Under the pieces are notes generated by a model, which was not told the DNA's origin, searched no databases, and saw only the letters and a program-made list of their open reading frames with translations. Shown piece after piece: positions 2,744-64,000 of a stretch of 64,000 nt of DNA. This DNA comes from Neopestalotiopsis rosae (Eukaryota; Ascomycota; Sordariomycetes; Amphisphaeriales; Sporocadaceae), in assembly GCA_023078685.1 (NCBI GenBank), contig JALGAS010000004.1, positions 2,356,001-2,420,000 of the forward strand. The letters are read 5' to 3'. Each line of letters starts with the position of its first letter. Positions within the stretch are counted from its first letter, which is position 1. A program made the translations under genes and the position numbers.

Positions 2744-3734
2744 TTAGGAATACCTTCGCACGTCGAGCTCATGCTTCTTTGCCCAAGCGTGTATCTTCTC
2801 AAAATTTACACACTGATGCCGGGTATTGAAATCTGGATGCATGCCGGATCGGACATTTGGGTCAAGAACGTTCATATAAACAACAGTGTCCACTTTACAT
2901 TGTAAGAGTACCCTTAAACTGTTGATACAATGGTCGACATGCTGCTCAATATTTAGCCAACGGGTATGGAGAGAATGGCTGAAGTGAAACGCACTGCCCG
3001 GATCTGTTTTGGAGTTCCGTCAAAAGCGGGTGTCTTGCTATAGTCCCATTCGTCACGGTATGTGTATTGACGAATCAGGTCGAGGCAATGTATATGATGA
3101 AAAACTTCCGCCAGTCAGCTGAGACAAGTCAACACCCACGAGTCGCTGCCCTCACCTTCAAGAGATTCAACAATACCACCCCCATCTTCTGGGACTGTAC
3201 GTTGCCAGGTGACATCGGCTGACTTGTTCAATACATCAAGCTTGTCGTATGGAATATTGATGGGCCCAACTGTGTTGGAGTCAGCTTTGTGTAGATGGAG
3301 AGAGGCTTGCAGTGTCTTTACAATTCCATAAATCGAGCCAAGCCTTTTCACGCTCAGCGTTGGGCTTCCCGCGGTAAATAGAATGTTCGTCGAACTTGTT
3401 CTGAAACTGAACGTCGACATATTCAATAGCCTCGGCAGCCGGGGCTGCGATCATGTCAATTTCAGACCTCCTCTGTGACTTGAGATAACTTACACCATTC
3501 CAGTCTCTGTGCGGAGCATTCCTCCCGGGTTGGCCTTTTAGTGTATGCAGCCACGAGTAGTATCAGCACAGCGGCCAACAGAAATGTTGTGAATAGCCAC
3601 GCAACAGGGCCTAGTAAATCCCATTTGACATAGGAGCGAAGCCGAGACCTTCGCTCCTTTTCCAAGATATCGATATCACGCTCATCCGGGTCCTCGACGG
3701 ATGCGACGGCACTGTAACGAGTGGAGGGAGCCAT
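2744..3734 (-). CDS. UstYa/DUF3328-type oxidase (UstYa-like 1)
   Basis: Five exons read leftward: 3734-3494, 3444-3322, 3269-3156, 3104-2995 and 2944-2744. Every junction is GT-AG and in phase, giving 262 residues. The start at MAPSTRYSAV is chosen because an acidic/basic tail and one membrane helix (WLFTTFLLAAVLILLVAAY) follow directly. The large lumenal part carries both UstYa hallmarks: FHHIHCLDLIRQYTYR, opening exon 4, and HVDHCINSLR, opening exon 5, each an HxxHC motif. The C-terminus contains HQCVNFEKIHAWAKKH, matching the usual family ending. UstYa proteins catalyse oxidative cyclisation of RiPP precursors (ustiloxin, asperipin, phomopsin and cyclochlorotine pathways). The gene diverges from the repeat precursor at 4420, which strongly suggests that the precursor is its substrate. 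The exon model is hand-made but every junction is consistent. Confidence 0.88.
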
Positions 3735-4419: not shown

Positions 4420-4800
4420 ATGCAGCTCAACCTCATTCTGATTCTTTCGGCTGTCGCCACAGCTTTGGCTGCGCCTGTTGAGGTCGACGCCCGTGCCTGC
4501 GTTTCCAGCACTGAGGATGATGGTACTGTTGTCAAGCGCTGTGCCATTCCTTGGACCAAGAACTACGGCGATTATGACGAGAAGCGATCTATTGATGCAC
4601 GTGCTTGCGTTTCGAGCACCGAGGAAGATGGCACCGTCGTCAAGCGCTGTGCCATTCCTTGGACCAAGAACTACGGCGATTATGACGAGAAGCGCTCTAT
4701 TGATGCACGTGCTTGCGTTTCGAGCACCGAGGAAGATGGCACCGTCGTCAAGCGTTGTGCTATCCCCTGGACCAAGAACTACGGCGACTACGACGAGTAA
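4420..4800 (+). CDS. Kex2-processed repeat RiPP precursor (dikaritin-like)
   Basis: This 126-residue protein starts with a signal peptide (MQLNLILILSAVATALAA) and then consists of three repeats of 36, 36 and 32 residues. Each repeat has a 14-residue segment CAIPWTKNYGDYDE bounded by Lys-Arg before it and Lys-Arg (or the stop codon) after it, plus a linker containing RACVSSTEEDGTVV. Kex2-type cleavage would release three identical 14-mers and the linker peptides. The acidic tail GDYDE after a hydrophobic/aromatic core and the UstYa neighbours fit fungal dikaritin-type precursors, whose cores are oxidatively crosslinked. The core holds Cys, Ile, Pro, Trp and Tyr, all possible crosslink partners. 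The start is the ATG at 4420, downstream of a TATA box. A mating-pheromone precursor has the same architecture, but the core does not look like a known alpha-pheromone. The final product is unknown. Confidence 0.85.
   Translation: MQLNLILILSAVATALAAPVEVDARACVSSTEDDGTVVKRCAIPWTKNYGDYDEKRSIDARACVSSTEEDGTVVKRCAIPWTKNYGDYDEKRSIDARACVSSTEEDGTVVKRCAIPWTKNYGDYDE
4486..4797 (+). repeat. Three tandem 108-base coding repeats of the precursor
   Basis: Copies lie at 4486-4593, 4594-4701 and 4702-4797 (the last lacks the terminal Lys-Arg-Ser-Ile). The protein is identical in the core of all copies. The DNA is a mosaic: the core of copies 1 and 2 is identical, whereas the linker of copies 2 and 3 is identical. 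Copy 3's core differs from copy 2 only at third positions, and the one protein change is Asp/Glu in the first linker. Confidence 0.95.
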
Positions 4801-6295: not shown

Positions 6296-6987
6296 AAGCT
6301 CATATCATTACAAAAGGATTTACAATAGAGGATGAAGATGCTGAGGAGAAGCTTCCTCTCGATGCGGATAGTTCAGTACCCGTGAGACCTGCCGGACGGC
6401 GCAATTCCTTACTGAGCCTCAAGTCTCTTGGCGTTTTCAAGGATGTAGCGTTGCTTATCATCTCACTTATTACCATCATCGTTGTTTCACGGGGAGTGCA
6501 GCCACCCGTAAAAGAGCCAGCTCCATGCGACTGCGGTGACTCCACAGCTGAGGCACGGAGAATGGGTTGCGAGTACGATACTATGTCCGCCGCTTGGCTA
6601 CCACAGCACTGCATCGATAAGGAGCTCATGATCGAGTTCGACCGAGCTGGTGATGGGCCTGGTGGCCGATGGCAGTATTGGGCGGATGGCAATCATACGC
6701 GTGAATACAGCATCGACGAGGTTGCCGCGTTGGCAGATACTCCAGGCAAACTCTTCTACACGACGCCACAGTGGCATTTTGGCCACTGCTTTTTCTATAT
6801 GAGGAAAATTCAGCGTGCTAGATACACCGGTGTCACGCTCGAGCGGAGGTATGATAATGAGCGGCACACCAAGCACTGCGGTGAAATGTTTGCCAACCCT
6901 GGTATGAAGGCGTACTCTTACGTGGAGCTGAAAAGCAGTAACCCCGAACCTCCAGATTTCATCAAAGACCTCATGCCGGATGTGTAG
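6296..6987 (+). CDS. Single-helix membrane protein with HxxHC motif, family of unknown function
   Basis: The open frame encodes an acidic N-terminal tail (TIEDEDAEEKLPLDADSS), a basic patch, one membrane helix (VALLIISLITIIVV) and a lumenal domain. That domain starts with CDCGDSTAEARRMGCEYD, continues with AAWLPQHCIDKELMIEFD and contains WHFGHCFFYMRK, an HxxHC motif like that of UstYa proteins, followed by a second Cys-His rich segment (RHTKHCGEMF). I recognise this as a widespread fungal one-helix family without assigned function; similarity to UstYa is in topology and motif only. No in-frame ATG precedes the helix, so a short upstream exon is likely and the 5' end is uncertain. One possibility is an ATG at 6245 spliced to 6296, but that intron would be only 38 bases. 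It lies between the precursor and the amidase, so a role in peptide maturation is possible. Confidence 0.7.
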
Positions 6988-7966: not shown

Positions 7967-9949
7967 ATGGCATCCTCTCACTTCAATCCACTCACAACCA
8001 CTACCGCCGATCTGCGGCGCATGCTAGATTCAAAGGATATTACTAGTGTACAAATTGTTGAGCAGTACCTCGAGCAGATTGACCGTCATGAAGAAGCACT
8101 CAATGCTTTGGCTTCTATTGCCCCTCGCGATGATTTGCGCCGCATTGCCTCATTGCTGGATGATGAGCGACGCGACGGAAGGGTGCGAAGCGCATTGCAC
8201 GGAATTCCAATCGTGCTGAAGGACGCCTTTATAACCTCTTCAGAGCTCGGTATGCCAACTTGCGCTGGGTCCATTGTGTTTTCTACCGCGAAAGCATCAA
8301 AGAATAGCGCGATTGCCCAGAAGCTGATTGATGCTGGAATGATCATTGTGGCAAAGGCTAACATGACCGTTGGTACCCTTTTGACGCTCAAAGGTGATGA
8401 GAATATGTCTGACAGATTCTGTAGGAGTTTGCCGGCCTGAAGACGAACCAAATGCTGCCCGGGTGGTCTGCCTATGGCGGCCAAACGATCTCGCCTTTCG
8501 TTGGAGCCATCAACCCGAATGATAGGATTCTCGGCCACTCGGTGTGTACTTTTTAGATGTTGTTCCTTGCAACGGCTTTAATTGACATGTACGGGAATAG
8601 ACGCCTGGTGGATCTTCTTCTGGCTCTGCGGTCGCAGTCGCAGCTGGATTCAGTCCACTATCCATGGGAACAGAGACGATCGGATCAATCGTGACTCCCG
8701 CTATCCGCGGAGGACTTTATGCCCTGAAGCCGACTGTCGGTGTTCAAGACACAGCTGGCATGTATAAAATGTCGAGCTTTTATGACAGTGCGGGACCCAT
8801 GGGGTAAGTTTCTGAAGTTTTCCTCGTGTTTTGCTGTTTTTTCCTTCCCCAGTTCCTTTCAGATGAGCAGGCACGGCGGAGGAAGAGTCTCCCCATACAT
8901 CTGCGCTAGGAACCCTGAGCATGTGTCTAATGAAATGGCCTAGGAAATGCGCCGACGACATAATCTCCATATCTGAGATATTGTTAGGCCAAAAATTTGG
9001 ATCTGATAACAAAATGGGCTGGCAAGATCTCGGCATAGCTTTTCTTGATCCGGAAGTATGGAACATGGACTCATCACAGTGCGAACAATTCCCCGGAACC
9101 GCAGAACAAATGGTATTGTATCACTCCATAAGTTCCAGGACTTGCGTTGTAACTGACCCTTCACAGGTGAGTGAGTACAAGGCCATTGTTACTCAAATAG
9201 AGCAACAGGGTTGTCTCGTAAAATTTCCAGCGGACCTTGCAGATGTTTCCAAGTTGGAGGACGATGGAAAGCACATTACTTCCGAAATTGCGTGTAGGTA
9301 CCACGAATCATAAATTCTCCACCAGAATGCTAACTTTCAGGAACCTGTAGTCTGGGAATTCAAACGTATCGGCATCCCAAGCTTCATTGCTGGGTTCAGT
9401 GAATGCCCTGTTGCCAATGTTGAAGAAATTATCCAGTTTAATGAGCAACACAAGAGTGTGGCCATGCCAGAGCGTACGAGCAATGATACTCCCGTGTTCT
9501 GGGTCACCATCTTATGAAGAGACCCTGTCAGCTAATTTTTTACTAGCATATACGGGGCAAGATCAATTGATAAGATCACGGGACACCTCGCAGAGCAATG
9601 AGTTCATGGAAGACGCGAGGACAAGAGTCCGACAAAGGGGAAAATCGATCATCAATCAAGTTTTTGAGAAGGAGAATGTCAACCTCATCGGTGCCCCAGG
9701 CGACTCTCCATTGTGTGTTCATGCTGCTGCTGCTGGTAATTACTTTCTCATCATTTAATCTTACCTCGTTCACCTAACTAAATTTCGGCAGGATACCCAC
9801 ATGCCGTACTTCCACTCGGAAAGCTCAGTTACAACGGCCGACCCTTTGGCTTGATTGTTGTAGCAAGAGAACACGATGAGCTTAGCCTACTTCGGTTCAT
9901 GGCAGCATATGAGCGTGTTTGTGGACCGCGACCCGTGCCCTCAATCTAA
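7967..9949 (+). CDS. Amidase-signature family enzyme
   Basis: Seven exons (7967-8368, 8425-8541, 8601-8803, 8944-9293, 9351-9473, 9547-9735, 9792-9949) join in phase at GT-AG sites to give 513 residues, a usual length for fungal amidases. The Ser-cisSer-Lys triad is visible: Lys85 in IVLKDAF, the cis-Ser in GGSSSGSAVAVAAGF and the nucleophile in MGTETIGSI. The C-terminal part (PYTGQDQLI, then LIGAPGDSPLCVHAAAAGYP and PLGKLSYNGRPFGL) is typical of fungal GatA-like amidases. These hydrolyse amide bonds of small molecules or peptides in the cytosol. Exon-internal stop codons in the raw frames vanish with these introns, so it looks intact rather than decayed. It lies between two UstYa-type genes and could trim or hydrolyse a peptide product, but a general catabolic role is equally possible. 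Confidence 0.85.
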
Positions 9950-11181: not shown

Positions 11182-12247
11182 CTAGATACCATCGCATTCT
11201 CCTTCACCTTCCAACGCGTAATTCCTTCCCTGCTCTATGTTGAACTTGCCGTCTGGGCCTTCGAGGACACGTTTGCTCGGATCCCAAACATTTCTCCCAG
11301 GTCTTCTCTCCCTGGCCCATTCCTGAAGTTTATCGAAGTTCCTGCAGGTATGCGAATTATCGGTGTGAGGCCTCAAACCTTGAACAATATCGCTCCACGT
11401 AAAGCGAACCACATTGAGGTCAGCATTACACATCAGAATTTGCCGGATTTGGTCTAAACAGTGATCTTTCCACGAGTTAGTTAAAACTCGTACCTTTCCA
11501 TAAGTCCAACAACGTCAAGTCCGACCTACCGATATGCACCCATTTACAGTGATCTATCGTACCGTTGGGTAAATAAAAGCTTTCATCGTAGTAGTCAGGA
11601 TATAGAGCCATTCGAATGCTATCGAGACAATGTAGATGGTGAAAGACACCCAGTGCCAGTGCAAATTCGTTCTCTCTGCCTTCGAATGGAAGACGCGCCG
11701 TGGCATCGGGAAGATGACTGGCTGTATTGGCATCAATGACGGAGAGCATACTGCCTGTCTCTTTTTAGTGTCATCCATGGTGGGTAAGGATGCTACTGAC
11801 CTGAGTACAATGAGCTCCATAGACGATCAACTTCTTTGCTAGGCCAGCCCTGATATGGAGTTTTGTCCGCTCCTCGGCTTCTATTGAATCGCACGGGTAT
11901 ATATTCCACGGCGTCTTTGGCGGGAGCTAACGGTAAGTCAACTTGGATTAGCAAGGAGTTCGAACCAGCATAGATGAATATCGCAAATGGGACGCACAAA
12001 AAACTTGTAACGATGGGTCAAAGGGATCCCCAAAAAGCGGACGTGATACCACTGCGCCAAGAAAGAACGCGAAGATCAACGAGAGGCAGCTCAAGACACC
12101 CAAGAGAAGCCTTGAACGTTTCTTGCTTTGTTTATGGTTGGAAAAGACGTGATCTTGAGTCGGCTGGTAGTGATCTGGGTGATCGGGGCCGACATGCTTC
12201 TCAGAAAGCAAGCTCACGCCTTCTGCATCGTGAGTGTCATGTATCAT
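11182..12247 (-). CDS. UstYa/DUF3328-type oxidase (UstYa-like 2)
   Basis: Four exons read leftward: 12247-11998, 11926-11801, 11754-11530 and 11465-11182, joining in phase to 294 residues. After an N-terminal tail (SLLSEKHVGPDHPDH) and the basic patch KQSKKRSR comes one helix (LLLGVLSCLSLIFAFFLGAVV). The lumenal domain follows the classic order: SPAKDAVEYIPVRF, then DKTPYQGWPSKEVDRLWSSL, the first motif VFHHLHCLDSIRMALYPDYY, the second motif HIDHCLDQIRQILMCNADL, and the ending HTCRNFDKLQEWARER. Both HxxHC motifs are intact. This is the canonical cyclochlorotine/ustiloxin Ya-Yb type, more typical than UstYa-like 1. Two UstYa-type proteins acting together are usual in dikaritin pathways. It lies about 6.4 kb from the precursor and is read away from the amidase-side genes. 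Confidence 0.9.
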
Positions 12248-15200: not shown

Positions 15201-16831
15201 GGATCTGGATTTAAATGATTCCTTCTTCTTATGCCGGACCCAATTTTTCTCACCAGGCGAATGTGAAAGTCGAAGGATGAAGGATCACCGAGATAGGTGG
15301 CCCTCATTTCATGTTAGTGCTGGGCCACAACTGCACATACCTGGGGGAACACTGTCTCCTCCTTTCAAAGAAAGCAGATAAGCCGAGGCTGTCTCGTACT
15401 AGATGCTGCTAATCCAATAGGGATTGTCGCCGCTGTTCGTGCATTTCTCTTACCAGGTTCGAACGTGTCCAATTGGCTTGAATAAGAGCCAGGTAGCCTG
15501 GTAGTTTAAGGATGTGATCCTACTTATGGTCAGCAATATTCCTATAGTGCTGACTATGACGACCGAGCACAATACGAAAATCATTCACAAGGTCGCCACC
15601 GTGCACTACAGTATTGTGGACGCTGCGGACTTTGCGCATTACCCGTTCCCCCAGATAGCCATTCAGTAGGGTCACCCTGAATGTGGGCTGGCTTTTAACG
15701 CGCCTACACCGCCATCGCCGCGTGGTTGGCGCTAAATGCCCCCTTGACTACTGTAGTATGGGCCTGATTCCTTACAGATTACAACCAATACTACTGTGTA
15801 CGTACGTGCGAACATATACCATCCTTGTACGATGCAATTGGGAGCCATGGCGGACCAGAATTCTGGGACTGGTCCATTGATGTGATTGTTCAATCAACCA
15901 GGCCGACATCCGACCGGTCATAGCCAAAATCCCTACCATAACTCAAATCCTACGAGTCTTTCTTCCCCAGCTTGCAATCCATGAAGATGCATGCCCTACG
16001 AACGTAGTAACAACCAGCCGGCACATTGGATTGTGACATTCGGTAAGAAACTAGTGCAGAATCCTAGCCGGCTTAAGCTATATTATGGTATCCAGTAGGG
16101 TCTTACCAACCAGACAGTGAAGGCCGAATCCGCTGCGGTTGGTGAACCCTACATGAATGGGTGGACTGAACCCCGGATATCAGATAGCCGGCAATGACTG
16201 CACAACTGTGCCGTTGAATTTCTCAACAACGGGTGTATTCAGCCTGCGATCTTACTAGCATTTGCTTGCTTAGCGTTCAGTTCTTTGGAAAGTGGTAAGG
16301 ACTGAACAGCTGAGGCTTGGTTAACATACAAGCTTTGTATACTTCTTTCTACTTAGTGCCTTTGGGCCTGGACGCTTAGCCCACTGGGGGCGGCTTGGTC
16401 CGCCCCTCGCAAGATGACTTCGCAACCACAAGTACCAACAGATAGGACTATAGCTATGCTGGAGCTGAGCTTACAAAACCCAAAAAGAGCGGGGTTGGCA
16501 TGGGTGGACTATCTGACTTACCCGGCTCTAATCCTAGTACTAAGCATGCCTACTTTCTGTGTTTCAGTGGTGTGATGTAAGAGAGATTGAACGAGAAAAC
16601 CCGGGGAATTCACACGTCAATTCGTTATGCGCTTGAGAACATTCGATACCAAGCTTTTCCTACTTTGGTTTAATCCCATCTTTATCCCCGCTGCTAAAAA
16701 TTGGTGATTTTAGGATGGAATATAGCATTCCCAAACGTGATTCATTTGTATTAGACAGGACATTACGTTTTTCAATCTACTGCACCAATTTCGCTCTTCA
16801 TACTCTACTTTGGTGTCAGTACTTCCTAAAC
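12248..16831. other. Long gene-poor stretch
   Basis: About 4.6 kb without a supportable gene. Frames here are short, overlap on both strands and lack motifs. A short lysine/alanine-rich segment at about 13060-13150 (AERLRAAEREHKRAKEVAKQ, then a stop soon after) resembles the C-terminal tail of fungal DDE transposases and may be a relic. The word TACCTAGGTAGGTAGGTA occurs at 13625-13643. The stretch separates the RiPP genes from the regulator at 16832. Confidence 0.45.
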
Positions 16832-18238
16832 ATGTTCGCAACTCTCTCGTACAATAGAGGTGATCAACAGCACCCAATCAAGGTGGTGCCGGGTAGTGCA
16901 CAAAGTTTTGGAGTACGCCGACCTACGAGACTTGCTTGCACTGAATGTCGTGCTAAAAAGGTTGTTCATTCTACAATCCTATTAACATTATGATGAGTTT
17001 TCTATTAACACTCTTGGCTATCTACTAGGTGAAATGCTCTGGAGATCGCAACGGTTGCACCAAGTGCCAAACTTCTGGCGCTCAATGTGTGTATCCTTTT
17101 GCAAATGAACGTGGTCTCCAGGGGAAAAGGCGGGCAACAATAGCGTCTGGTAGGAGAGACCCTGATAATACCGCCAATGGTGCCGCTAGCTTTGGCGCGA
17201 AGGATACGAATGGAGTCGACACCGTTGCTGCCACTAGTATGAGAGGCCATGACAACACAAGCACCCACAACGATCCTAAAAGCAGCAATTCCACAGAGAA
17301 TGGCCCAAATCAGATCTCAACAGAGGTGACAAACCTCTGCTTCCATGGGAATGAGAACCCAGGTGTTCATTCAACAACGTCGACGGCTACTACTTTGAAT
17401 GGTGGGGATACTTCTGATGTTGTGTCTCCGTTATTATATCCCGATACTGGCTTCGCAGTGGACGATTTTCAAGATTGTGAGTGTTAACAATGACAACGAA
17501 ACGCACGAGCTATGGGTAGAGGAATAATTCGACTCATGATCAGATCTCGATACGTCGGGCTGGGTATCCCCTGGGGCCACGCCAAGTATTGAATATGATC
17601 CGTTCGCCAGCATGGACTCTGCCGATGACCAGATGCTCACCTGTAACGGTGCACCTCGAGGCTCGGGAATGTCGCATCCAGATGATATGATCATGGGAAA
17701 TATGAAACACGTCAAAACCGTGGACGATGGCTCCTCCAACGTCGGCAACAAGACATCATGCTCATGCATGACATTGGCTACGCGGATGCGGGAGGATCAA
17801 TTAGAGGGAAACGATCAAGGGAACGTGTCCATGGATACACTTTTAAAAATTCAAAGCGAATCTCTGGCGCATCTGAATTCCTGGATGAACTGCAAGGAAT
17901 GTCCTACACCAAAGGCCACATTCCTGGTCCTGGCCCTCATCATCGAGCGGCTGTCAATTCAGCTAGAGAATGGCGCGGCATGTTATGCTCGGAGCTTGCA
18001 TCAAAGTCACCAGGTATCTGGAGGGGCCATCCTACGCGAGGGATCTGGAATGCTTGGAGAGTATCGCATTGGCTCTCAGTATGAGTGGACGCGGGTTTTA
18101 GGTGTTCTTCTTATGGTGAAGTGTGAACACTTACATAGAGCCAAGCGAGATCTCAGCAGGAAGCACAATGCGGTACATGCTCTATTGGTAGAAGCCGACA
18201 AGAGGTTGCACCAGACCATGAAAGACTTGAATAGCTGA
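16832..18238 (+). CDS. Zn2Cys6 transcription factor, AflR-like
   Basis: Three exons (16832-16960, 17029-17476, 17544-18238) give 423 residues. The Zn2Cys6 cluster is split by the first intron between CTECRAKK and VKCSGDRNGCTKCQTSGAQC, with spacing C-x2-C-x6-C-x6-C-x2-C-x6-C. A long Ser/Thr/Asn-rich middle follows. The C-terminal third is helical (MDTLLKIQSESLAHLNSW, then KATFLVLALIIERLSIQL and WTRVLGVLLMVKCEHLHRAK), the layout of AflR-type pathway regulators rather than of the fungal_trans group. The start at MFATLSYNRG is preferred to the upstream ATG at 16715 because the latter adds an unusual hydrophobic leader. It lies between the peptide and polyketide halves, so which genes it controls cannot be read from position. 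Confidence 0.85.
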
Positions 18239-22454: not shown

Positions 22455-24935
22455 GTGCTGCAGTCACTGCTCACTCAACTCGAACCTGACAGCACATGTC
22501 CAGACGTTGTCATTATGACTTTAGACATGAAAGACTTGGAAAGCTCGCTTATCCGACAAGCCACCGTGACGCCCCAATGGCTGTCGGGGAACCAGGCATT
22601 CTGGTACCTCCGCGAAGATGGACTAGGGGGGTCCCAGTTCATCTTGGTCGATTGCGCGACAGGACTCCGTCAAGCAGCATTCGATCATGACGGACTCGCA
22701 CGCGAGCTAAGCAAGCAGACAGAGCAGATCATCGAACCGCACCGCCTGCCATTCTGGTGGATCAACGTGGCGCAAGACGGTTCGTGGATGCGCTTCCAAT
22801 TTGATGGGCGTACCTGGCAGTATGGAAGGAACGGTCAACTTGAGCTACGGGATGGCGAACTTGATATGGGCGACTTTGATGACGCCAGCGATGAAGGGCC
22901 GTCACCGTGGTCGCGCCAGAAGTCCTCCATCACCTTCGCAAACCACACGACTCATTCAATCACCTACTCCTGGATGGACAACGAAGGTGGTGCCCAATAC
23001 TATGGCACAGTGGTAGCTGGTCAATCGAGGACCCAAGAGTCTTATGCTGGTCATGTCTGGCGGCTTACCGTCGAAGACTCTGAGAAGAATATCGCTTGCA
23101 CCGTGAAGGACAGACATGCCACTGCTGTTATTGGAGAACCGCCCGACCGTCTCACCCTGAAGTGGCAGTCAGACATATGGGATGGTGGAAATCGTTCTGC
23201 CAAACTTGATGGTTCAGTGCCTACAAAGGCAGGACCTGAGATCTTTGTGCGCGATTACAACGCGTGGGTAAGACACGTCGACGGAACCGAGGAACCGCTC
23301 TCTCATGATGCCTCTGTGGATGGATCATTCAAAGAAGATTACATATACCCATCATCCGCTCAGCAATACGCAGTCATGTGGCAGTGTGAGCCTGAGTCCG
23401 AGCATATTGTCCACATGGTAGACTCCTCCCCAGAAGACCAACTTCAGCCAAAGCTGAAAAGCATCCAGTACTTGAAGCCTGGAGACAATGTGGAGGTCTG
23501 TAGGCCCCGACTGTTTGATCTAGGGGTTCGTAAGGAGATTTGCGTCGACAACAGATTATTCAATAACCCGTACGTTCTTATCAACATCGGCTGGTCTGAA
23601 GATGATACAAAGTACCGCTTCATTTACAACGAACGCGGGCATAAGCGTGTACGACTTCTTGAGATCAACTTGAGCGGAAATGTTAGGATTCTAGCTGAGA
23701 ATCGCAGCGAGACGTTCGTCGACTACCACCATAAGCTATATTACAAGATCATAGAATCGCGAGGTGAACTTCTGTGGGCGAGTGAAAGAGATGGTTGGAA
23801 CCATCTTTACTTGTACGATCTGACCGATGGATCTGTAAAGAATCAAATCACACAGGGAGAGTGGGTGATGCGCTCTGTAGAGGCTATCGACCTGGAGAGG
23901 GGCCTGATTTGGTTTACATGCCTTGGATTGGTACCAGGTCAAGACCCATATTACGCTCACCTAGCGTGTGTCGGTTTCGATGGGTCAGGCTTACGTATTG
24001 TGACGGATGGGGATGGCACACATACGTGGAAATGGTCGCCGGATAGGCGCTTCCTCATCGATAGCTGGTCGCGAGTCGACCTTCCACCCCACACGGTACT
24101 TCGAAAAGCGCAGACTGGGGAGATGATTGCCTCTTTGGAGCAGAACCCGCTCGACATTCTTGTTGAAGCCGGTTGGAGCTGTCCAGAGATATTCATGGCG
24201 CCTGGACGTGATGGACAAACTATGATTCACGGCGTGATCATACGTCCTGCTTCCTTCGACGCTTCAAAGAGCTATCCTATCTTGGAACGCATTTATGCTG
24301 GTCCTCAGGGCTATTATACCCCAAAGGCCTTTCAGCCTCTGGCTAAACTCCGTCAACGTGCGAACCAGGGGTATATTATAGTTCTCATGGATGGCATGGG
24401 TACGAACTGGAGGTCGAAAGCATTCCACGACGTGTGTTACAAGAACTTGAAAGATGCCGGTCTGCCTGATCGCATCGCATGGATACGGAAGGCGGCTGAA
24501 ACGCGTCCTTGGATGGACATCTCTCGAGTCGGATGTTATGGCAGCTCGGCAGGCGGTCAAAATGCTGCAGCTGCTGTTCTCCACCATGGTGATTTCTACA
24601 AGGCTGCGTGCGCCTCTGCGGGCTCCCATGACAACCGTATGGATAAGCTGTGGTGGAATGAGCTATGGATGGGTTACCCGGTAGATGATAGCTATCGGGA
24701 ATCTTCCAATGTCACCCACGCGCACAAGTTACGCTCCGCCTTGATGCTTGTGGTCGGCGAGCTGGACACCAACGTGGACCCTTCATCAACGATACAACTA
24801 GCAAACAGCTTGATCAAAGCTGATAGAGACTTCGAGCTGGTGTTTGTTCCAGGAGGTGATCACCACGTAAGCACATTGCCGTATGTGGAGAAAAAGCAGG
24901 ATTGCTTTCTCAAAAGATGTTTGAAACCCGTTTGA
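22455..24935 (+). CDS. S9-family prolyl-oligopeptidase/dipeptidyl-peptidase-like serine peptidase
   Basis: A single exon of 826 residues. The N-terminal two thirds are beta-propeller-like (DPP IV N-terminal type), with repeated Trp/Asp/Gly-rich segments such as HTWKWSPDRRFLIDSWS. The C-terminal alpha/beta-hydrolase domain carries the nucleophile in GCYGSSAGGQNAAAAVLHHG (GxSxGG), the acid in VGELDTNVDPSS and the histidine in VPGGDHHVST, an intact S9 triad in the right order. No signal peptide is evident, so it is probably cytosolic. The true start may be the Met at 22515 (MTLDMKDLESS). S9 enzymes remove dipeptides or cleave after Pro in short peptides. Its place between the peptide-precursor genes and the polyketide genes allows a role in trimming a RiPP core, but it may be an unrelated housekeeping enzyme. 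Confidence 0.85.
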   Translation: MLQSLLTQLEPDSTCPDVVIMTLDMKDLESSLIRQATVTPQWLSGNQAFWYLREDGLGGSQFILVDCATGLRQAAFDHDGLARELSKQTEQIIEPHRLPFWWINVAQDGSWMRFQFDGRTWQYGRNGQLELRDGELDMGDFDDASDEGPSPWSRQKSSITFANHTTHSITYSWMDNEGGAQYYGTVVAGQSRTQESYAGHVWRLTVEDSEKNIACTVKDRHATAVIGEPPDRLTLKWQSDIWDGGNRSAKLDGSVPTKAGPEIFVRDYNAWVRHVDGTEEPLSHDASVDGSFKEDYIYPSSAQQYAVMWQCEPESEHIVHMVDSSPEDQLQPKLKSIQYLKPGDNVEVCRPRLFDLGVRKEICVDNRLFNNPYVLINIGWSEDDTKYRFIYNERGHKRVRLLEINLSGNVRILAENRSETFVDYHHKLYYKIIESRGELLWASERDGWNHLYLYDLTDGSVKNQITQGEWVMRSVEAIDLERGLIWFTCLGLVPGQDPYYAHLACVGFDGSGLRIVTDGDGTHTWKWSPDRRFLIDSWSRVDLPPHTVLRKAQTGEMIASLEQNPLDILVEAGWSCPEIFMAPGRDGQTMIHGVIIRPASFDASKSYPILERIYAGPQGYYTPKAFQPLAKLRQRANQGYIIVLMDGMGTNWRSKAFHDVCYKNLKDAGLPDRIAWIRKAAETRPWMDISRVGCYGSSAGGQNAAAAVLHHGDFYKAACASAGSHDNRMDKLWWNELWMGYPVDDSYRESSNVTHAHKLRSALMLVVGELDTNVDPSSTIQLANSLIKADRDFELVFVPGGDHHVSTLPYVEKKQDCFLKRCLKPV

Positions 24936-25713: not shown

Positions 25714-27242
<1,529 letters not shown>

Positions 27243-30955: not shown

Positions 30956-33900
30956 ATGGAGTCTATGTCGCCTAGATGCGAGAAAGGGGGGAGCGTCGTC
31001 TTGATCTTTGGGTCACAAGCATTAGATTTCAACCATGAAACAGCATCTCCGCTCCGGACAGCCATTCTCGGAAATCCAGACTTGGCTTGGGTTGAGAACG
31101 TAATCACAGAACTGAGAGACGTGTGGGATGTTGTGGCCGATAAGCTGCCTGAGCTTACCACAATCCCTGGCAGCCAGCAACTTGACAGTCTCATTGAGTG
31201 GCTTCGGAGAGGCAGTTTCCCGGGTGGTGCATCCGCGTTCCCTCTCCCAAACATCGTACTTACACCACTCGTCGTCATCACGCACCTCGTTCAGTACACA
31301 CATTTTCGTCAACTTGATCCCAAGTGTTCGGATACCACGAAGACACTGGGTCTATGCACTGGGCTTCTGAGTGCCGCGGCTGTTTCCCATTCAGCGAATA
31401 ATGCACAACTTCGCAGATACGGCGCGATTGCGGTGCGAATCGCCATGCTGATCGGTGCTCTTGTCGATGCACAAGATATCGAAGATGACGGAGGGTCAAA
31501 ATGGGCATCCCACTCAGTGATGTGGGCTTCGGGCAAGCTCGATGCTTCAATAAGTCAAGTGTTGACGGAATTTTCAGAGGTATGCTCCAATATACGTTTC
31601 ATACGACCTTGGCTGGGTGATTTAAAATCGCTGACTGACCGGAACATGGTGTTCGTCGTGTTGCAGGCATACCTCTCTGTAATTCCAGATGAGAACAGGG
31701 CCACAGCTACCAGCCGCAGAGCGGACGTTGCAACACTACAGCAGCGACTCAAAGCGTTGGGCTTTATAACAGCGGATATTGGTCTACATGGGAGCTTTCA
31801 TAGCTCGAAGAATGAGACCATGGCCGAAGCTCTGATCCGGTTCTGTGCCGCACATACCGCGTTCCAGTTCCCAGATGTCGCAGAAGCCGTCATCCCAACT
31901 TGCCTCGTGTCAAACGGCAAGACCGTCAAATCTGGGCTACATCACGAGCACGTGATACGTTCAATCCTGACGGAGCTGGCTGACTGGCAGTCAGCGTTTG
32001 CCGAGTTGAAGACAATCAGCGTTGGTATTTCCTTTGGTCTTGAGCGCTGTGTACCAGGCTGGTTCTCACGGAAGCTGGGGACACGCTTAGTACATTTAAA
32101 TAGCCTCAACTTGCCCTCCCAGAAGGAGCGGCTAAAAGGCATGCTTGCTTCAGCTGGCTTGGCCATAGGTCCGCAGCAGCATCTCGCCATGGACAACGAT
32201 TCTGTTGCGATTATTGGCATGTCGTGCCTTCTACCTGGCGCTGCGGACCTTGAGGAGTTTTGGGATTTGCTTTGCCGGGGTGAATCGCAACACACTGAGG
32301 CGCCGGCTGACCGATTCAATTTTGAGACGGCATGGCGTGAAGTGGACCCTTCCCGAAAATGGTATGGCAACTTCATCGATGGCCACGATGCCTTTGACCA
32401 TAAGTTCTTCAAAAAGAGCCCACGCGAGATGTCGTCCACCGATCCCCAGCACCGCCTCATGCTACAGGCAGCTTACCAAGCTGTTGAACAGTCTGGATAC
32501 TTCAACAATCAGAGCCGGGACAAACATATCGGCTGTTATATAGGTGTGGGCCTGGTCGACTATGAGAATAATATCGCTTGTTATCCTGCCAATGCCTACG
32601 CAGCCACAGGGAACCTCAAGTCGTTCGCGGCAGGCAAGATCAGTCACTACTTTGGATGGACGGGCCCAGGGCTCACAATTGATACGGCTTGTTCTTCTTC
32701 AGCCGTAGCAGTCCATACAGCCTGTCGAGCAATACTGACGGGCGAATGCTCGGGTGCGCTCGTGGGTGGTGTGAACATCATGACAAGCCCAGAATGGTTC
32801 CAGAACCTGGCTGGGGCATCGTTCTTGAGCCCAACAGGGCAGTGCAAACCATTCGATGCCAACGCCGACGGCTATTGCCGCGCAGAGGCTGTTGGGGCTG
32901 TTTTCATCAAGAAGCTCTCCGCAGCGATTGCGGACGGCGACCAAGTCCTTGGGGTGATAGCGGCCTCAGGTGTATATCAAAATGAGAACTGTACCGCCAT
33001 TACTGTTCCAAACGCCCCCTCATTGTCCGGGCTTTTCCAGGATGTAGTCCAGAAGGCCGGACTAGAGCCCAAAGACGTCTCAGTGGTCGAGGCACATGGC
33101 ACCGGGACGCCAGTTGGTGATCCAGCGGAGTACGACAGCGTGCGCCGTGTATTCGGGGGCTCGAGCCGTCCTGGCGGCGACTCCCTTGCCCTCAGCTCTG
33201 TCAAAGGGCTGCTTGGCCATTCAGAGTCCGCTTCCGGTATTGTCGCCTTACTCAAGGTGCTGCTCATGATCATCAAGGGTTTTGTCCCTCCCCAAGCAAG
33301 CTTCAAGACCATTAACCCTTCCATTGCCGCCACGCCAGCCGACCGCATCGAGATTCCAACAAAATTGAGGCCTTGGGATGTTGAATTCCGAGCTGCACTG
33401 ATCAACAATTATGGAGCATCGGGCTCGAACGCTTCACTGGTCATTACGCAGGATCCTCGTATCGAGGCGCAGTCCACAAATTCAGTGCTACTGAACAACC
33501 CCTCCGGCGCCAGGTACCCGATTTGGCTCTGTGGCTTTGATGAACGCAGCCTCCGTGCGTATGCCGCGAAGTTGGCAACTTTCCTAGCTTCTCAGAAGCA
33601 CAATAACGCTGTTACCCTTTCGAATATTTCCTTCCAGATCTCTCGCCAATCGAATAGAAACCTAGCCCAGTCCTTGATCTTAAGCTGTAACTCTATGACG
33701 GATCTAGAGGAAAAGCTGACATCTTTTGCAAGTGGCAAAGATGAGCAGAAAGATCTCCACCCGACCATCCGGCGCGATGATGCTAGGCCTGTAGTCCTCT
33801 GCTTTGGTGGTCAGATATCAACCTTCGTTGGTCTGAACAAGGAGATCCATGATTCTTTTGCAGTTTTTCGCAATCGCCTTAATGAGGTAAACAATACCTG

Positions 33901-36900
33901 TATGTCCCTGGGACTGAAAGGTATCTACCCGACAATTTTCCAAAAATCCCCGGTTGAGGACATTGTTGCTCTCCAGACGTCGCTCTTCGCAATGCAATAT
34001 TCTTGTGCCATGTCCTGGATCGACTGTGGCGTGAAGGTGGCCACGCTGGTGGGACACAGCTTCGGTGAGCTTACGGCCATGTGCGTCTCCGGGATGCTGT
34101 CTCTACATGACGCCTTGAAAATGGTCTCCGGGCGAGCGTCAATCATCCAAGACGACTGGACGTGGGACCGCGGCGACATGGTAGCTGTAGAAGCCGATCT
34201 CCACGAAATTGAAGACCTCCTAGAAGATGCGAGCCAAAAGACACCCAAAGAGGCAATCCCTGCCACCATTGCATGCTTCAACGGGCCTAGGAGCTTTACG
34301 TTGGCTGGATCGGTTGCAGCGATTGATGCAGTCATGAAGACCGCTAAGGGCAAGGGTAGATACTCGAACATTAAGATGAAAGAATTGGACGTGTCGCATG
34401 CGTTTCACTCAGCGCAAGTCGACGGCATCGTCCCGAAGCTTCGGGACTTGGGACGCCAAGTCATCCTTCGAGATCCTCAAATACCTCTAGAGAGGGCAGT
34501 GGCAGATGGCCACGTGCCATCTCGATATACTTCCGACTTCGTCGCCGAGCACCTGAGGAACCCCGTATACTTCAACCATGCGGTTCGGAGGGTTGCTAAG
34601 AAGTACTTAGATGGCTGCATCTGGCTTGAGGCTGGTTCCAATTCGACTATCACGACCATGGCAGCCCGGGCTCTAGGATCCCTGAAGACTTCACATTTCC
34701 AGCCAGTCAATATAAATGCCAACAACGCGTTCAATCTGTTGACAGATACCACGGTCAACCTTTGGCAAGAGGGTTTACCTGTATCGTTTTGGGCGCATGA
34801 CGCGGTCCAATCACTCGAATACCCCACTTTACTTCTGCCTCCATACCAGTTTGAAAAAGTCAAGCACTGGATGCAATTGAAGAAACCACAGAAGCAGTTA
34901 GCGATGCCTGCGATGCCTGCTGCCGCCCAGCCAACTGAGTTCAATGTCCCTCAGGGGGTCTGGACATTTGTGGGATACCAAGATAGCAATGGACAGAAGG
35001 CGCGGTTCCAGATCAATGCCAAGACGCAAGAGTACCAGAAATACGTTTCAGGTCATGTTATTGCTGAAGCCGCTCCCATCTGTCCCAGCACCTATCAGCT
35101 CGTTATTGCCATTGACGCACTAGCGAGCCTCATGGATGACCCCAAATGCGAAAAGCTCAAGCCTGAACTGCAGGGCATGGTCAGTCACTCGCCCATGGTG
35201 ATGGACGCGTCAAAGCTGTACTGGCTTGATGCCGAGCAGTTGACAGATTCAACAGCTTGGGATTGGCGAATAATTGGTGCCCCTTCTGAGGCTGCACCAT
35301 TGTCTTCCAACACGACACTCTTCGTTACGGGTCGTATTGTGTTCAAGAACACAGAGGCATCTCAAGAAGAATTTGCGAGATACCGACGGCTGATCCAGCA
35401 CAAGAGATGCCTCTCGTTACTCAACGGGAATGCGGCTGAAGGTGCCATTATAGGCAGCCGAAACATCTATAAAGCTTTTTCTGACATAGTGCAGTATAAG
35501 CACAGGATTTACCATGGTCTGAACAAGTTGGTGTTTCGCGGCAGCGAGTCGGCGGGGTGCGTCTCGCAAATGCAAGCAAGCGAGACTTGGCTCAATCTCG
35601 GTCTCGCAGACAGCTTTTGCCAAGTTGCTGGCATTTGCCTCAACAGCGTCATGGAGAAGCCGGAAGAGGACATGTTTATCTCCGATCGCATCGACCAGTG
35701 GATCCGCTCGCCGACAACAAAGGAAGAAGGAGATCCCGCCGCATGGGATGTTCTTGCCTGCCACTCGAGATCATCAGATCAAGAGTGCATTAGTGACGTT
35801 TTCATCTTTGACCAACGGAACGGAGAGTTGGTTGAGGTCATCCTAGGGATACACTATGTCCGTGTATCTCGTCCTGGTATGGCGAAGCTGTTGACGAGGC
35901 TTTCGGGCGGAAAGACTACTCCCCCGCGTTCAGCAAACTTGACTTCTACCGAAACAGCAACAGTCATGATCGAGAATGGACATCCTAAGTCAGCTCAGAA
36001 GGCCCCGGAGCCTGTGGTCCAAACGCAGCAGAGTTCAAGACAGCGCACTTTGACACAACCGGACGTAGCGGGAAGCCTCCGCGATCTAGTATGTAATCTC
36101 TCGGGCCTAGAGCCTGCAGAGGTACAACTCGACGCTAAGCTGGTGGACCTTGGAATCGACTCTCTCATGGGCATGGAGCTTGCTAGCGAAATCCAGAACC
36201 TGCTCAACTGCAAATTGGACATGGCCGACTTACTAGACTTAACCGACTTTCAAAGTCTCGTCACTTGCATCAAAGGAGTCCTCGGCCTGAATGGTGCCCT
36301 AAACGGCCATTCGCATACAAACGAGGAGCCAGTTGAGCCTGCCCACACCAATGGCGTCAATGGCGCGCACTTGAAAGGCTACACCAATGGTGTCAATGGC
36401 CACCAGTCACGCAAGAATGGCAGTCCTGGCGTCGAAAACATCTCTATTCCCGCTTCGGTAATGCTTGAAGCTTTCAAAGATACCAAAGGAGCAACTGACC
36501 GCTTCATTGAGGAGAACGGGTTTGCGGACTATGTGAAGCACATCCTTCCAAAGTCCAATGAGCTATGTGTGGTGCATATCCTTGATGCTTTTGATCAATT
36601 GGGCTGTTCAATTCGGGGGGCGAAGCAAGGGCAACCATTGCAGCGCATTGAGTACCTGCCTAGACACGAGCAATTTGTAAAGTTCATCTATGATCTCCTT
36701 CGGGATCATGGCCTCGTGGAGGTACAAGGATCCAGCATTATGCGGACTGCCAAACCAGTTCCCGCCAAGTCTGCTGCTGCGTTGTTGCAGGAAATGATTG
36801 ATGACAACCCAGCCCATGCTTTTGATCATAAGCTGACGAGCCTGACTGGATGTAAACTTGCAGACTGCTTGACTGGGAAGGCTGATGGGTTGCAGCTCGT

Positions 36901-39068
36901 GTTTGCGTCCGCCGAGGGGCGGGAGACTGTATCTGGCATGTACGGCAAGTCCCCAATCAACGTAGCCTGGATAAGGCAAATGGAACACCTGCTACGAGAA
37001 TTCTTCCTTCGGCTGCCCAAGCAGGATGGCCCCATTAAGATTCTCGAGATGGGATCTGGAACTGGGGGAACTACAGCCAACCTCATCCCAGTATTGGCCA
37101 GCCTCGGGATCCCTTTCCGATACAGTGTTACGGACCTATCGCCATCACTTGTAGCTGCAGCGCGCAAGCGCTTCAAGGCCTACCCTTTTATGGATTTCCA
37201 GGTATTAGACATTGAGAACCCGCCGGCTGATCTGATTGGTAGCCAGCATCTTATTCTTGCTACTAATTGCGTTCATGCCACACACAGCTTGGTGGAGTCG
37301 ACCCGTAACATACATAGGCTGCTGCGCCCCGACGGGTTCCTGATGATGCTGGAGATGACCCAGACGATTCCATGGATTGACCTCGTCTTCGGTCTTATTG
37401 AAGGCTGGTGGCTGTTCAATGACGGTCGGCGCCACGCTCTACAACCACCCGAGGTTTGGGACCGTACAATGAGATCTGTAGGCTATGGCCACGTTGATTG
37501 GACGGACGGCGAGCGGCCAGAAGCGGCGATCCAGCGCATCATCATTGCCTCAGCCTCGAGCCCGGATCTGGGCAGCGAAAGGGTACAACACGATAAGCCC
37601 CCCTTTCCTCTTGCGAGTCTCTCGACTGACCAACTTGCACGCCAAGGCGCAGTAGATGCCTTCGTAGAAAAGTACACACGCGATCTCGCTCTTGGTCCTG
37701 AACAGTCGGTCGGTATCGGAACCGACAGCGATATTCGCAAAAATAGCAACAACAAGGGCCATTGTGTGTTAGTCACAGGTGGCACTGGCAGCCTTGGCTC
37801 TCAACTGGTCGCACACTTTTCAGCACTACCCGACGTCTGGCGCGTCATCTGTCTCAACCGGCGCAGTGTCAGTACGGAGGACTTCGCGCGGCAGATGACG
37901 GCGCTGACCTCCCGGGGGCTACATATGTCGCCCGAGCAGCTGGGCAAGCTCACCGTCCTCGCGAGCGACACCAGCAAGCCAGAACTAGGCCTTTCACATG
38001 CTGAATACACGGAGCTTGCTAGTACCGTCACGAATATTGTGCATAATGCGTGGCCGATGAGTCTCACCCGCCCGGTCGACGCGTTCGAGCCGCAGTTTCG
38101 AACCATGCGCGGCCTCCTGCAGTTGGCAGGAGCGTGTGTAACTCGACGCACAGCAGGGATGGCTAATTCTGGGCCTAGCAGAATTGGCTTCCTATTTGTG
38201 TCGTCCAGTACGTTCTGTCCTTTACTCTTCCCAAATTTAGTAAGACTATTGAAGGAATAGAAGACTGATGACACCTGCGCAGTCGCAACCGTGGGCTACT
38301 ACCCGCTGTGGAGCGGCCGCCCTCTAGCACCCGAGAACGCCGTAGGAGTGGAATCAGTTCTTCCAAACGGCTACGGTGATGCAAAGCTCGTGTGCGAGAG
38401 GATGGTTGATGCGGCCCGCGCCAAGTATACCGCATCCGACTTTCATGCGACTGTGGTACGCATCGGCCAGATATCAGGGTCCACTACCAGCGGGTACTGG
38501 AACCCGGTCGAGCACCTTGCTTTCTTGATCAAGTCTGCCCAAACTGTAGGGGCTCTGCCCGATTTCGACGGTGTAAGTCTGCCGTGACAACTCCCCTTAT
38601 CATCAACAAGCCAAGACGCCTAAGTTTTATTTGCTGACGCGGTCCTTGTAGACACTATCCTGGTGCCCAGTCGATGTTGTAGCAGCTACGCTGGGCGACC
38701 TGCTACTGGGAACCGATGAGTCTTACCCAGTGTACCACGTCGAGAATCCACAGCGGCAACCATGGCATGAGATGGTGCACATGCTAGCTGCTGAGCTTGG
38801 TGTTTCCAAGAATAAGATCTTACCATTTGCCGAGTGGCTCATCCAGGTCCGGGAGTTCTCTGGCTCATCCAAAGATAATCCCGCCTCTGCCCTGGTGGAT
38901 TTTCTAGCCCAACACTTTATCCGCATGTCATGTGGGGGGCTCATCTTGGACACGGCTAGAAGCCAAGAGCACTCTGATACATTGAGGCAAGCGAAACCTG
39001 TGTCTACTGAATTGGTAAAGAAATACGTCGAGTCGTGGAAGACCATGGGTTTCTTGAATCGTAGTTGA
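30956..39068 (+). CDS. Non-reducing polyketide synthase, SAT-KS-AT-PT-ACP-CMeT-R
   Basis: Three exons (30956-38207, 38283-38572, 38652-39068) give 2652 residues. SAT: Cys134 in LGLCTGLL. KS: starts near residue 412 (SVAIIGMSCLLPG), Cys579 in IDTACSSS, His714 in [11 protein letters not shown], His755 in LLGHSES. AT: Ser1035 in VGHSFGE. PT: His1367 in YVSGHVIAEA and Asp1552 in LADSFCQVAGI. One ACP: Ser1736 in LGIDSLMGME. An Asn/Gly-rich linker follows, then CMeT with LEMGSGTGGTTAN near 2030. A reductive release domain starts at VLVTGGTGSLGS near 2271, with the YxxxK-type NGYGDAK. All catalytic residues checked are present. This architecture makes C-methylated aromatic aldehydes for azaphilones, asperfuranone, sorbicillinoids, citrinin and tropolones. 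The SAT could accept a starter from the HR-PKS at 56805. It converges with the regulator at 39574. Confidence 0.96.
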
Positions 39069-62800: not shown

Positions 62801-64000
62801 CTTTCGGACTCAACTTCCGCGACGTCATGGTGGCCATGGGCCAGCTACAAAGCTCTCTGATGGGCTTCGAATGTGCTGGCCACGTTGTGCGCGTCGGGTC
62901 CGCGGTCAAGGGTTTCAAACCCGGCGACCGTGTGGCGATGCTGCTGCGCGGCTACTACGGCAATCTCTCCCGCGTTCACTGGACGAGCGTCGTACATATA
63001 CCCGAAGATATGACCTTTGAGATAGCTGCTAGTTTGCCCGTGTCGTACTGCACAGCTTACGTGTCCGTATACTCACACGCGCGGTTGCAAAAGAACGAAA
63101 CCATTTTGATTCACGCCGCAAGTGGTGCATTTGGACAGGCTGCGCTCATGCTGGCCAAACATATCGGCGCTGAAATCTACGTAACTGTCGGCACACCGTC
63201 TAAGCGCAAGTTTATTATTGAACACTACAACATCGAGCCTGAGCGCATATTTAGTAGCAGGGACACCTCATTCGCGGCCGACCTCCTTGCAGCAACCAAC
63301 GGCCGTGGAGTGGACGTTGTCCTCAACTCACTTGCTGGCTCACTTCTGCAGGAGAGTTTCAACTGTCTAGCCCCGTTCGGACGCTTCATCGAGATTGGTA
63401 AGCGTGATCTGGAACTCAACTCTCAGCTAGCTATGGGTGCCTTTACGCGGGCTGTCAGCTTCACATCTGTCGATCTGCTGGCTTTTGGCAGAGAAAAAGG
63501 CCCCGAGACACAGATCGTGTTTCAAGAGGTCATGCGCCTCTTCCGTGAGAAGGCCATCAAGCCGGTGCAACCAATCACTGTGTACTCTGTGTCTGAGATC
63601 GACCGCAGCTACCGCTTGATGCAAGCAGGCAAGCATATGGGCAAAATTGTCACCGAAATGAGGCCCGACGCACTGGTCCCTGTTCTTCCACAGAAACGAA
63701 CAACAAGACTTCGCGAAGATGGCTCATACTTGATTGTTGGCGGCCTCGGAGGCATCGGAAGCTCTGTCTGCCACTGGTTGGTGGCACAAGGAGCACGAAA
63801 CCTCATCATCGTGTCGCGGAGAAAGAACGCCGAATCCAGCAACAAGAATCTAATCGACGAGCTTCAGAACAAAGGCTGTAGGGTAGAAGTGCTCACATGC
63901 GATGTGACAGATGAGTCTCAGGTATTCAGTGCCGTAAAACTTTGTACAGAAGAGCTAAAATTGCCTCCCATCAGAGGCATAATCCAGGCAGCCATGGTAC
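56805..64000 (+). CDS. Highly reducing polyketide synthase, KS-AT-DH-CMeT-ER-KR, cut by the window edge
   Basis: Four exons (56805-56984, 57034-57120, 57177-57234, 57296 to the edge), about 2344 residues so far. The start at [19 protein letters not shown] is preferred. KS: Cys177 in VDTGCSTTL, His312 in [11 protein letters not shown], His352 in NIGHTE. An (Asn-Gly-Thr-Ser)n linker precedes AT, whose nucleophile is Ser713 in [13 protein letters not shown]: His1048 in [18 protein letters not shown] and Asp1237 in [10 protein letters not shown]. CMe[15 protein letters not shown] near 1512, intact. [16 protein letters not shown] near 1946 and [16 protein letters not shown] near 2049, so a trans-ER is not needed. 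[17 protein letters not shown] near 2252; the rest and the ACP are beyond the window. It would make a reduced, possibly methyl-branched chain for the NR-PKS starter site or the acyltransferase. Confidence 0.96.
58414..58509 (+). repeat. 12-base coding minisatellite in the HR-PKS linker
   Basis: Eight copies of a unit read as AACGGAACCAGC (one copy has GGG for GGA), coding Asn-Gly-Thr-Ser repeats between KS and AT. The length is a multiple of three, so unit gain or loss keeps the frame. Confidence 0.95.

Follow-up and report, generated by a model that had tools for sequence, protein, structure and literature searches.

The open reading frame at positions 4420–4800 (+) of the window, by which we mean the whole 64,000-nucleotide stretch analysed (contig C12, bases 2,356,001–2,420,000), is probably the precursor gene of a dikaritin-type RiPP. 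Its product would be cut by Kex2, and a UstYa cross-link is predicted within the octapeptide WTKNYGDY. We infer this processing and chemistry from the anatomy of the precursor, its conservation among the relatives found, the pattern of its cysteines and its UstYa neighbourhood, all of which were observed.

The precursor of 126 amino acids is encoded by a single open frame without introns, and consists of a signal peptide followed by three units, each with a C-x13-C segment, a KR site and WTKNYGDYDE. Its N-terminus reads MQLNLILILSAVATALAAPVEVDAR, after which the units begin; the hydrophobic start of this segment, judged by eye, is a predicted signal peptide (MQLNLILILSAVATALAA, 4420–4473, +). 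Each unit has the sequence ACVSSTE(D/E)DGTVVKR-CAIPWTKNYGDYDE, and the linker between units is KRSIDAR. In unit 1, the C-x13-C segment (Cys27–Cys41; 4498–4542, +), a predicted hairpin, holds the KR Kex2 site at 4534–4539. The core CAIPWTKNYGDYDE occupies 4540–4581, with the octapeptide at 4552–4575, and recurs at 4648–4689 and 4756–4797 (all +), the stop codon coming directly after the third copy. The sequence-only reading had described a Kex2-type repeat precursor with a signal peptide and three repeats carrying an identical core bounded by Lys-Arg. This is what the frame holds, the signal peptide again by eye: three copies of 108 nucleotides begin at 4486, 4594 and 4702, giving a period of 36 residues in the protein, and Tandem Repeats Finder returns a period of 108 with 2.8 copies and 92% matches.

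With 29 codons compared per unit, 13 vary from copy to copy, 12 of them synonymously; within the 14-residue core there are 5 synonymous changes and no amino-acid change among the three copies. A naive neutral binomial puts the P of this synonymous excess at about 1.5e-7; gene conversion between copies may contribute to the excess. On the basis of this bias, the repeat is more than chance. The sole match to the precursor gene in the 53.8-Mb genome is the gene itself. Furthermore, we scanned the window and the 18 kb preceding it upstream for KR sites together with repeated words. Three frames emerged, namely the precursor and two long frames of polyketide-synthase type, which leaves the precursor as the only short Kex2-repeat frame found; no second short precursor turned up in that same span of the cluster.

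The precursor is not an orphan. Two protein searches yielded 25 homologues, which represent at least five orders of ascomycetes. The first gave 11, all recovered among the 25 of the second, whose scoring covered the 7,991 candidates with most shared words. Species names are attached to 11 of the 25, representing ten species: Gnomoniopsis sp. (Diaporthales), Penicillium rolfsii (Eurotiales), Xylaria arbuscula (Xylariales), Trichoderma harzianum (Hypocreales), Podospora aff. communis (Sordariales), Fusarium nematophilum (two homologues), Aspergillus melleus, A. affinis, A. steynii and A. fijiensis. The precursors have one, two or three units. The pattern WT[KQ]NY[GAS][ED], defined after the sequences were read, matches at least once in all 26 precursors (the 25 homologues and that of the window), with 39 matches in total. 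These matches are the 39 units counted below; degenerate units fall outside the count, namely unit 2 of P0010 and of P0011, which lacks the core, and a cut-off copy with which P0009 opens.

In the first matched unit, Lys is found in 22 of 26 precursors (Gln in the other 4), Gly in 24 and Glu in 24; Trp and both Tyr occur in 26 of 26. The final Tyr is likewise found in every one (26/26), at a position outside the pattern's demands; in unit 2 of P0046 it is replaced by Ile. The residues preceding the octapeptide are Cys (24/26), Ile (23/26) and Pro (23/26), with substitutions of all three in P0036, of Ile and Pro in P0034, and of Cys and Pro in P0046. Among the 11 precursors with an exact C-x13-C, the octapeptide has a mean pairwise identity of 95%, as against 32% in the spacer and 24% over the first 18 residues. 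Hence, the conserved element is WTKNYG(E/D)Y. Given that both searches seed on exact shared 5-residue words and that the units were listed by a core pattern, relatives with a changed core would be missed, and the invariance of the core is partly ascertained. The 14-residue core proposed in the sequence-only reading thus holds as the repeated sequence in all three copies, with only WTKNYG(E/D)Y conserved. Cross-links at Ile and Pro, which had also been proposed, are unlikely, since both residues are replaced in P0036 and P0034, and Pro in P0046. That the core had not been recognised from any characterised product agrees with our search of the open-access literature, in which the core strings have no occurrence (figures and supplements lay outside that search).

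Next to the precursor gene lies UstYA (2744–3734, −), which encodes a UstYa/DUF3328 oxidase of 261 amino acids in a 4-intron model, with a transmembrane helix by eye and intact HHIHC and HVDHC motifs. UstYA and the precursor gene are divergently transcribed, with their start codons 685 bp apart. A second UstYa/DUF3328 protein, UstYC (11182–12247, −; 294 amino acids, 3-intron model), carries HHLHC and HIDHC. With splice sites picked by eye, the spliced proteins match Pfam UstYa at E = 2.7e-53 for UstYA and 2.2e-49 for UstYC. The HxxHC(x)nHxxHC copper motif is therefore intact in the adjacent UstYA, and also in UstYC. DUF3328 proteins with this motif are copper- and oxygen-dependent enzymes; one of them, CctR, is an oxygen-dependent dicopper enzyme in which the HxxHC residues are essential, and AprY, the asperipin cyclase, is likewise cited there as depending on copper and oxygen (PMC12435403).

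The two UstYa genes named in the sequence-only reading are real, and they belong to a larger group. The cluster has seven Pfam-UstYa places in about 23 kb (C12:2,344,974–2,368,023), of which two are within the window and five upstream of it, so the cluster extends past the window. The five upstream places lie at C12:2344974–2355646, and the nearest seems to extend a few hundred bases into the window; one upstream place has lost the histidines of its motifs (FQDLAC, VDAC). Across the whole genome, 78 UstYa exon matches merge into about 55 places, which together with their 5-kb flanks make up 0.74% of the genome, or 1.26% with 10-kb flanks. Two further genes are candidate members of the cluster: an Acyltransferase-3 family membrane protein (686–2449, +), a possible tailoring enzyme, and an amidase-family gene of several exons (7967–9949, +), whose first exon matches Pfam Amidase and whose end was set by eye. 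Neither a tyrosinase (UstQ/PhomQ) nor an S41 peptidase has a match near C12:2.345–2.368 Mb, the closest S41 match being about 108 kb off. A second group of UstYa genes is found about 90 kb further along the contig (C12:2458121–2465294), with an S41 peptidase match at 2468706.

The UstYa profile has no relatives in the PDB, NCBIfam gave no informative name, and the UstYa structure predicted from 18 sequences is of low quality (mean pLDDT 52.1). A PDB match of the precursor to a ribosomal protein (E = 0.77) was treated as chance.

The window also holds a separate polyketide-type cluster at 25714–50183. Its polyketide synthase (30956–38260) has SAT, KS, AT, ACP and methyltransferase domains and NAD-binding reductase-like C-terminal domains, and the cluster also includes a FAD enzyme, a trichothecene-acetyltransferase-like protein, an FSH1 hydrolase, an MFS pump and an amine-oxidase-like protein. 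A large open frame, ketosynthase-like by eye, runs from 57229 to the window end at 63999 (+) and contains a 12-bp tandem repeat at 58413–58517. In addition, a Zn2Cys6-type sequence (CTECRAKK... CSGDRNGCTKCQ; 16715–17487, +) was recognised by eye; it is apparently split by an intron, and its first piece alone has no Pfam match. Judged by eye, it is possibly a regulator of either the UstYa or the polyketide-type cluster.

UstYA itself has 21 homologues at 44–72% identity. Among the matches to UstYA in its own genome, the three best-scoring paralogues are 37, 31 and 40% identical and the remainder 23–41%, which suggests that the 21 are mostly orthologues. Judged from identical contig sizes, a UstYA homologue is apparently on the precursor's contig for 3 of the 25 homologues, in line with the expectation that orthologues of the precursor keep a UstYa neighbour. 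In Podospora aff. communis, P0011 and P0017 are both on contigs of 1,648,996 bases and have locus tags three apart (374230 and 374227); in Aspergillus steynii, P0045 and P0030 are on contigs of 4,506,587 bases; in the third pair, P0035 and P0031 are on contigs of 6,381 bases. For the other 22 precursors, linkage is not visible either way. Among the 21 matches, none has a contig matching that of Gnomoniopsis (233 kb), Penicillium rolfsii (5.1 Mb), Xylaria arbuscula (865 kb) or Fusarium nematophilum (6.9 Mb). The cause may lie in clustering at 90% identity, in genes left unannotated or in a true lack of the homologue. The UstYA tree agrees in part with taxonomy, with 5 label changes where the minimum is 3 and the shuffled mean 8.0. 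As the tree follows taxonomy only partly, the gene may have descended vertically or may have been transferred horizontally.

A further gene between the precursor and UstYC deserves mention here. UstYB (6382–6987, +) has a transmembrane helix and the motifs HFGHC and HTKHC, again in the HxxHC(x)nHxxHC arrangement; its N-terminus is uncertain, the frame being open upstream, and it has no Pfam match above cut-off. Elsewhere in the genome there are 19 UstYB-like places, of which 13 are within 10 kb of a UstYa place and 10 within 5 kb, compared with the 1.26% of the genome taken up by UstYa places with their 10-kb flanks, and with neighbouring members not independent. As a control, 63 tyrosinase rows merged to 36 places, of which 2 are within 10 kb of a UstYa place and none within 5 kb. 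Ten loci were fetched for an alignment of the family, and two whose segments missed one or both motifs were left out (one seemingly in the wrong frame, one ending early). Across the nine aligned sequences neither HxxHC motif varies, which is partly due to this selection. Of three family members scanned, one has a weak match to Pfam UstYa, below the cut-off (E 0.028). Against the UstYa profile, the single UstYB sequence matched in the transmembrane region alone, while a profile of the nine sequences aligned at both HxxHC motifs (E 0.0015, probability 16.7). From these alignments, the UstYB family is likely a divergent DUF3328-like branch of the same kind of copper enzyme, and it enlarges the pool of candidate copper oxidases of UstYa clusters.

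We now turn to how the core might be released. The genome has one P_proprotein match, that is, a Kex2-type gene. A dibasic site is present within 12 residues upstream of the Trp in 30 of the 39 units and absent there from 9, so Kex2 cutting at that place is not universal. In 20 of the 30 units that have the site, the residues before the Trp form a perfect ladder of X-Ala or X-Pro dipeptides ending at the Trp (e.g. CA-IP, CP-IP, EP-CP-IP). Dipeptide trimming of the Ste13 type is known for alpha-pheromones; given these ladders, it could leave Trp as the first residue. An enzyme of the DPP-IV family (Peptidase_S9 and DPPIV_N), the Ste13-like kind, is encoded at 22455–24935 (+), 18 kb from the precursor, and nothing ties it to the cluster.

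These ladders raise the question of whether the product is simply a linear signal peptide, processed by Kex2 and Ste13 like a pheromone, left unmodified by UstYa, and maturing as WTKNYGDYDE. The perfect ladders that would serve such processing include EP-CP-VP and EP-CP-IP in P0010 and P0011, and the strong conservation of the core is what one would expect of a receptor ligand. Nevertheless, we consider this unlikely: the start of a UstYa gene is only 685 bp away, with apparent linkage in three other sources; the ladder is broken in 10 of the 30 units (CN-IP in six, other forms in four); and the core is unlike the Cys-containing alpha-pheromone motif, which is of the W..G(Q/E)..CW type. In addition, the survey of Umemura 2020 indicates that pheromone precursors almost never have DUF3328 neighbours, the KEPs annotated there as mating factors or pheromones being without a nearby DUF3328 gene save for three exceptions (in the portions of PMC7329392 drawn on here). 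A match to a known alpha-pheromone would have spoken against the sequence-only reading, and WTKNYGDY lacks the motif; we reject an alpha-pheromone identity of the precursor because of the core sequence and the UstYa neighbours. A strict DNA pattern of the alpha-pheromone motif gave 0 matches in the whole genome, in a search that had no internal positive control.

The cysteines provide a second line of evidence on processing. A unit was scored for one Cys at most 5 residues before the Trp and for another within 28 residues before it. Of the 39 units, 31 have both, 6 have neither (unit 2 of P0007, all three of P0036 and both of P0046) and 2 were scored with one; in P0009, the upstream Cys is hidden by the mask on the first 18 residues, and in P0041, the gene model begins just past the position. 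Counted by precursor, 21 have both, 2 neither, 1 is mixed and 2 were scored with one. The co-retention has a Fisher P of 8.6e-6, for the uncorrected table and with units of one protein not independent. The spacing between the two Cys ranges from 8 to 23 and is 13 in 18 of the 31 units. In the precursor, the Cys residues are 27, 41, 63, 77, 99 and 113, and AlphaFold (16 sequences), read for secondary structure and confidence rather than distances, places strands at 27–31/37–41, 63–67/73–77 and 99–103/109–113. Since the strand ends coincide with the Cys positions, each pair of strands spans Cys to Cys, with E(D/E)DGT in between. The model is weak overall (mean pLDDT 58.1, pTM 0.20), its best block, 101–110, averaging 87. 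Thus, each C-x13-C stretch is predicted, at low confidence, to form a beta-hairpin, and that the two Cys of each unit pair as a disulfide is a supported prediction. Cys had been listed in the sequence-only reading as a possible cross-link site; it more likely pairs with the second conserved Cys, in the spacer, of which that reading made no mention.

If the two Cys are joined across the KR site, a Kex2 cut at the KR would leave spacer and core as two chains still linked by the disulfide, and the final product could in principle be such a two-chain peptide, as in insulin-type hormones. The Cys are indeed kept or lost together, their spacing is held at 13 in most pairs despite a spacer identity of 32%, unit 2 of P0010 and of P0011 retains the Cys pair after losing the core, and P0039, which has lost its dibasic site, keeps both Cys. 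However, P0036, P0046 and unit 2 of P0007 carry the core without either Cys, and the spacer is poorly conserved, unlike a ligand chain, so that we regard a two-chain product as quite improbable. That the frame encodes an uncleaved repetitive secreted protein, of the cell wall or an effector, in which the KR sites are fortuitous, is very improbable, for although 9 of the 39 units lack a dibasic site ahead of the core and some homologues are single-unit, the site precedes the core in the other 30, a UstYa gene adjoins, and no part is conserved more strongly than the core.

Taken together, a WTKNYGDY nearly unchanged in the relatives found in five orders and an adjoining gene for a copper oxidase make excision of the core likely, predict a cross-link that closes a ring, and allow an old shared role. 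For the dikaritin-type precursor that we favour, the signal peptide would bring the protein into the secretory pathway, where the two Cys of each unit probably pair and clasp a beta-hairpin that displays the KR site and the core. Cleavage by Kex2 after KR would then free CAIPWTKNYGDYDE, and UstYA, with the HxxHC motifs of a dicopper site, would cross-link the conserved Trp and two Tyr through a Tyr-ether or Trp-Tyr bond, perhaps assisted by other UstY proteins of the cluster. A Ste13-like peptidase could take off the X-Ala/X-Pro dipeptides before the Trp (CA-IP), and the acidic tail of the core could be trimmed as well.

More tentatively, WTKNYG(E/D)Y might be an old, UstYa-cross-linked, hormone-like signal peptide of fixed structure, common to Sordariomycetes and Eurotiomycetes with hardly any change. 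It would come from a precursor of novel design, whose disulfide clasp across the Kex2 site keeps each core in a hairpin, ready for the copper oxidase, until it is released. The near-fixed core between orders and the conserved UstYa homologue point to a fixed molecular target or receptor. The conservation of the core also makes the role of UstYa peptides for the fungus itself testable in ordinary laboratory species.

The paired Cys suggest a step of folding or presentation that goes unmentioned in the portions of the literature on Kex2-repeat precursors drawn on here. The words "cysteine" and "disulfide" are absent from the main text of PMC7329392 and PMC9769878, and PMC6339444 mentions paired cysteines for alpha-pheromones and a pheromone-like peptide only, as far as these portions extend.

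With its secretion signal (by inspection) and repeats separated by KR, the precursor fits the definition of KEPs, secreted proteins with repeats parted by Kex2 sites (Le Marquer 2019, Umemura 2020). The latter survey counted 7,878 Kex2-repeat proteins in 838 types and a further 2,560 stand-alone ones, and the type described here is possibly among the 838. DUF3328 genes were near 22% of the Kex2-repeat proteins. Most KEP types were unique at least at the genus level, while some were common to up to 49 genera, and several were found in 11 to 20 genera, mostly with DUF3328 neighbours (PMC7329392); a broad distribution by itself therefore has precedents. Unlike most of these types, the precursor is common to at least five orders, with a core nearly fixed in the members found, whereas Kex2-repeat and dikaritin cores are described in that paper as highly diverse. 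With ascomycete alpha-pheromone precursors, it has in common the Kex2 repeats and also the X-Ala/X-Pro dipeptides, which 20 of 30 units carry; it differs from them in a core without the alpha-pheromone motif and in its UstYa neighbours, against the rule reported in PMC7329392.

The closest likeness is to the dikaritins ustiloxin, phomopsin and asperipin-2a, with which the precursor has in common a signal peptide (by inspection), repeated cores flanked by dibasic Kex2 sites (KR) and containing Tyr (two in the first matched unit of 26/26 precursors), and adjoining UstYa/DUF3328 genes within a cluster; a cross-linked product is predicted here. Their cores, YAIG, YVIP and FYYTGY, are unlike WTKNYG(E/D)Y, and the precursor differs further in the Cys pair around the Kex2 site and in an octapeptide that, in the homologues found, hardly varies from order to order. 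The ustiloxin and phomopsin clusters carry a tyrosinase and an S41 peptidase, for which the present cluster has no nearby match. In this it resembles the four-gene asperipin-2a cluster, and tyrosinase and S41 peptidase are accordingly not universal in dikaritins (PMC6514808). Finally, the tentative hormone-like reading with a fixed core departs from what is known of dikaritins: their cores vary, and most of them are regarded as toxins. A precedent for an endogenous, non-toxin role of a dikaritin-like KEP is provided by POI2 of Neurospora, a KEP of the ustiloxin type with a different core (YxIx); according to a report cited in PMC7329392, it is essential for female and perithecial development.
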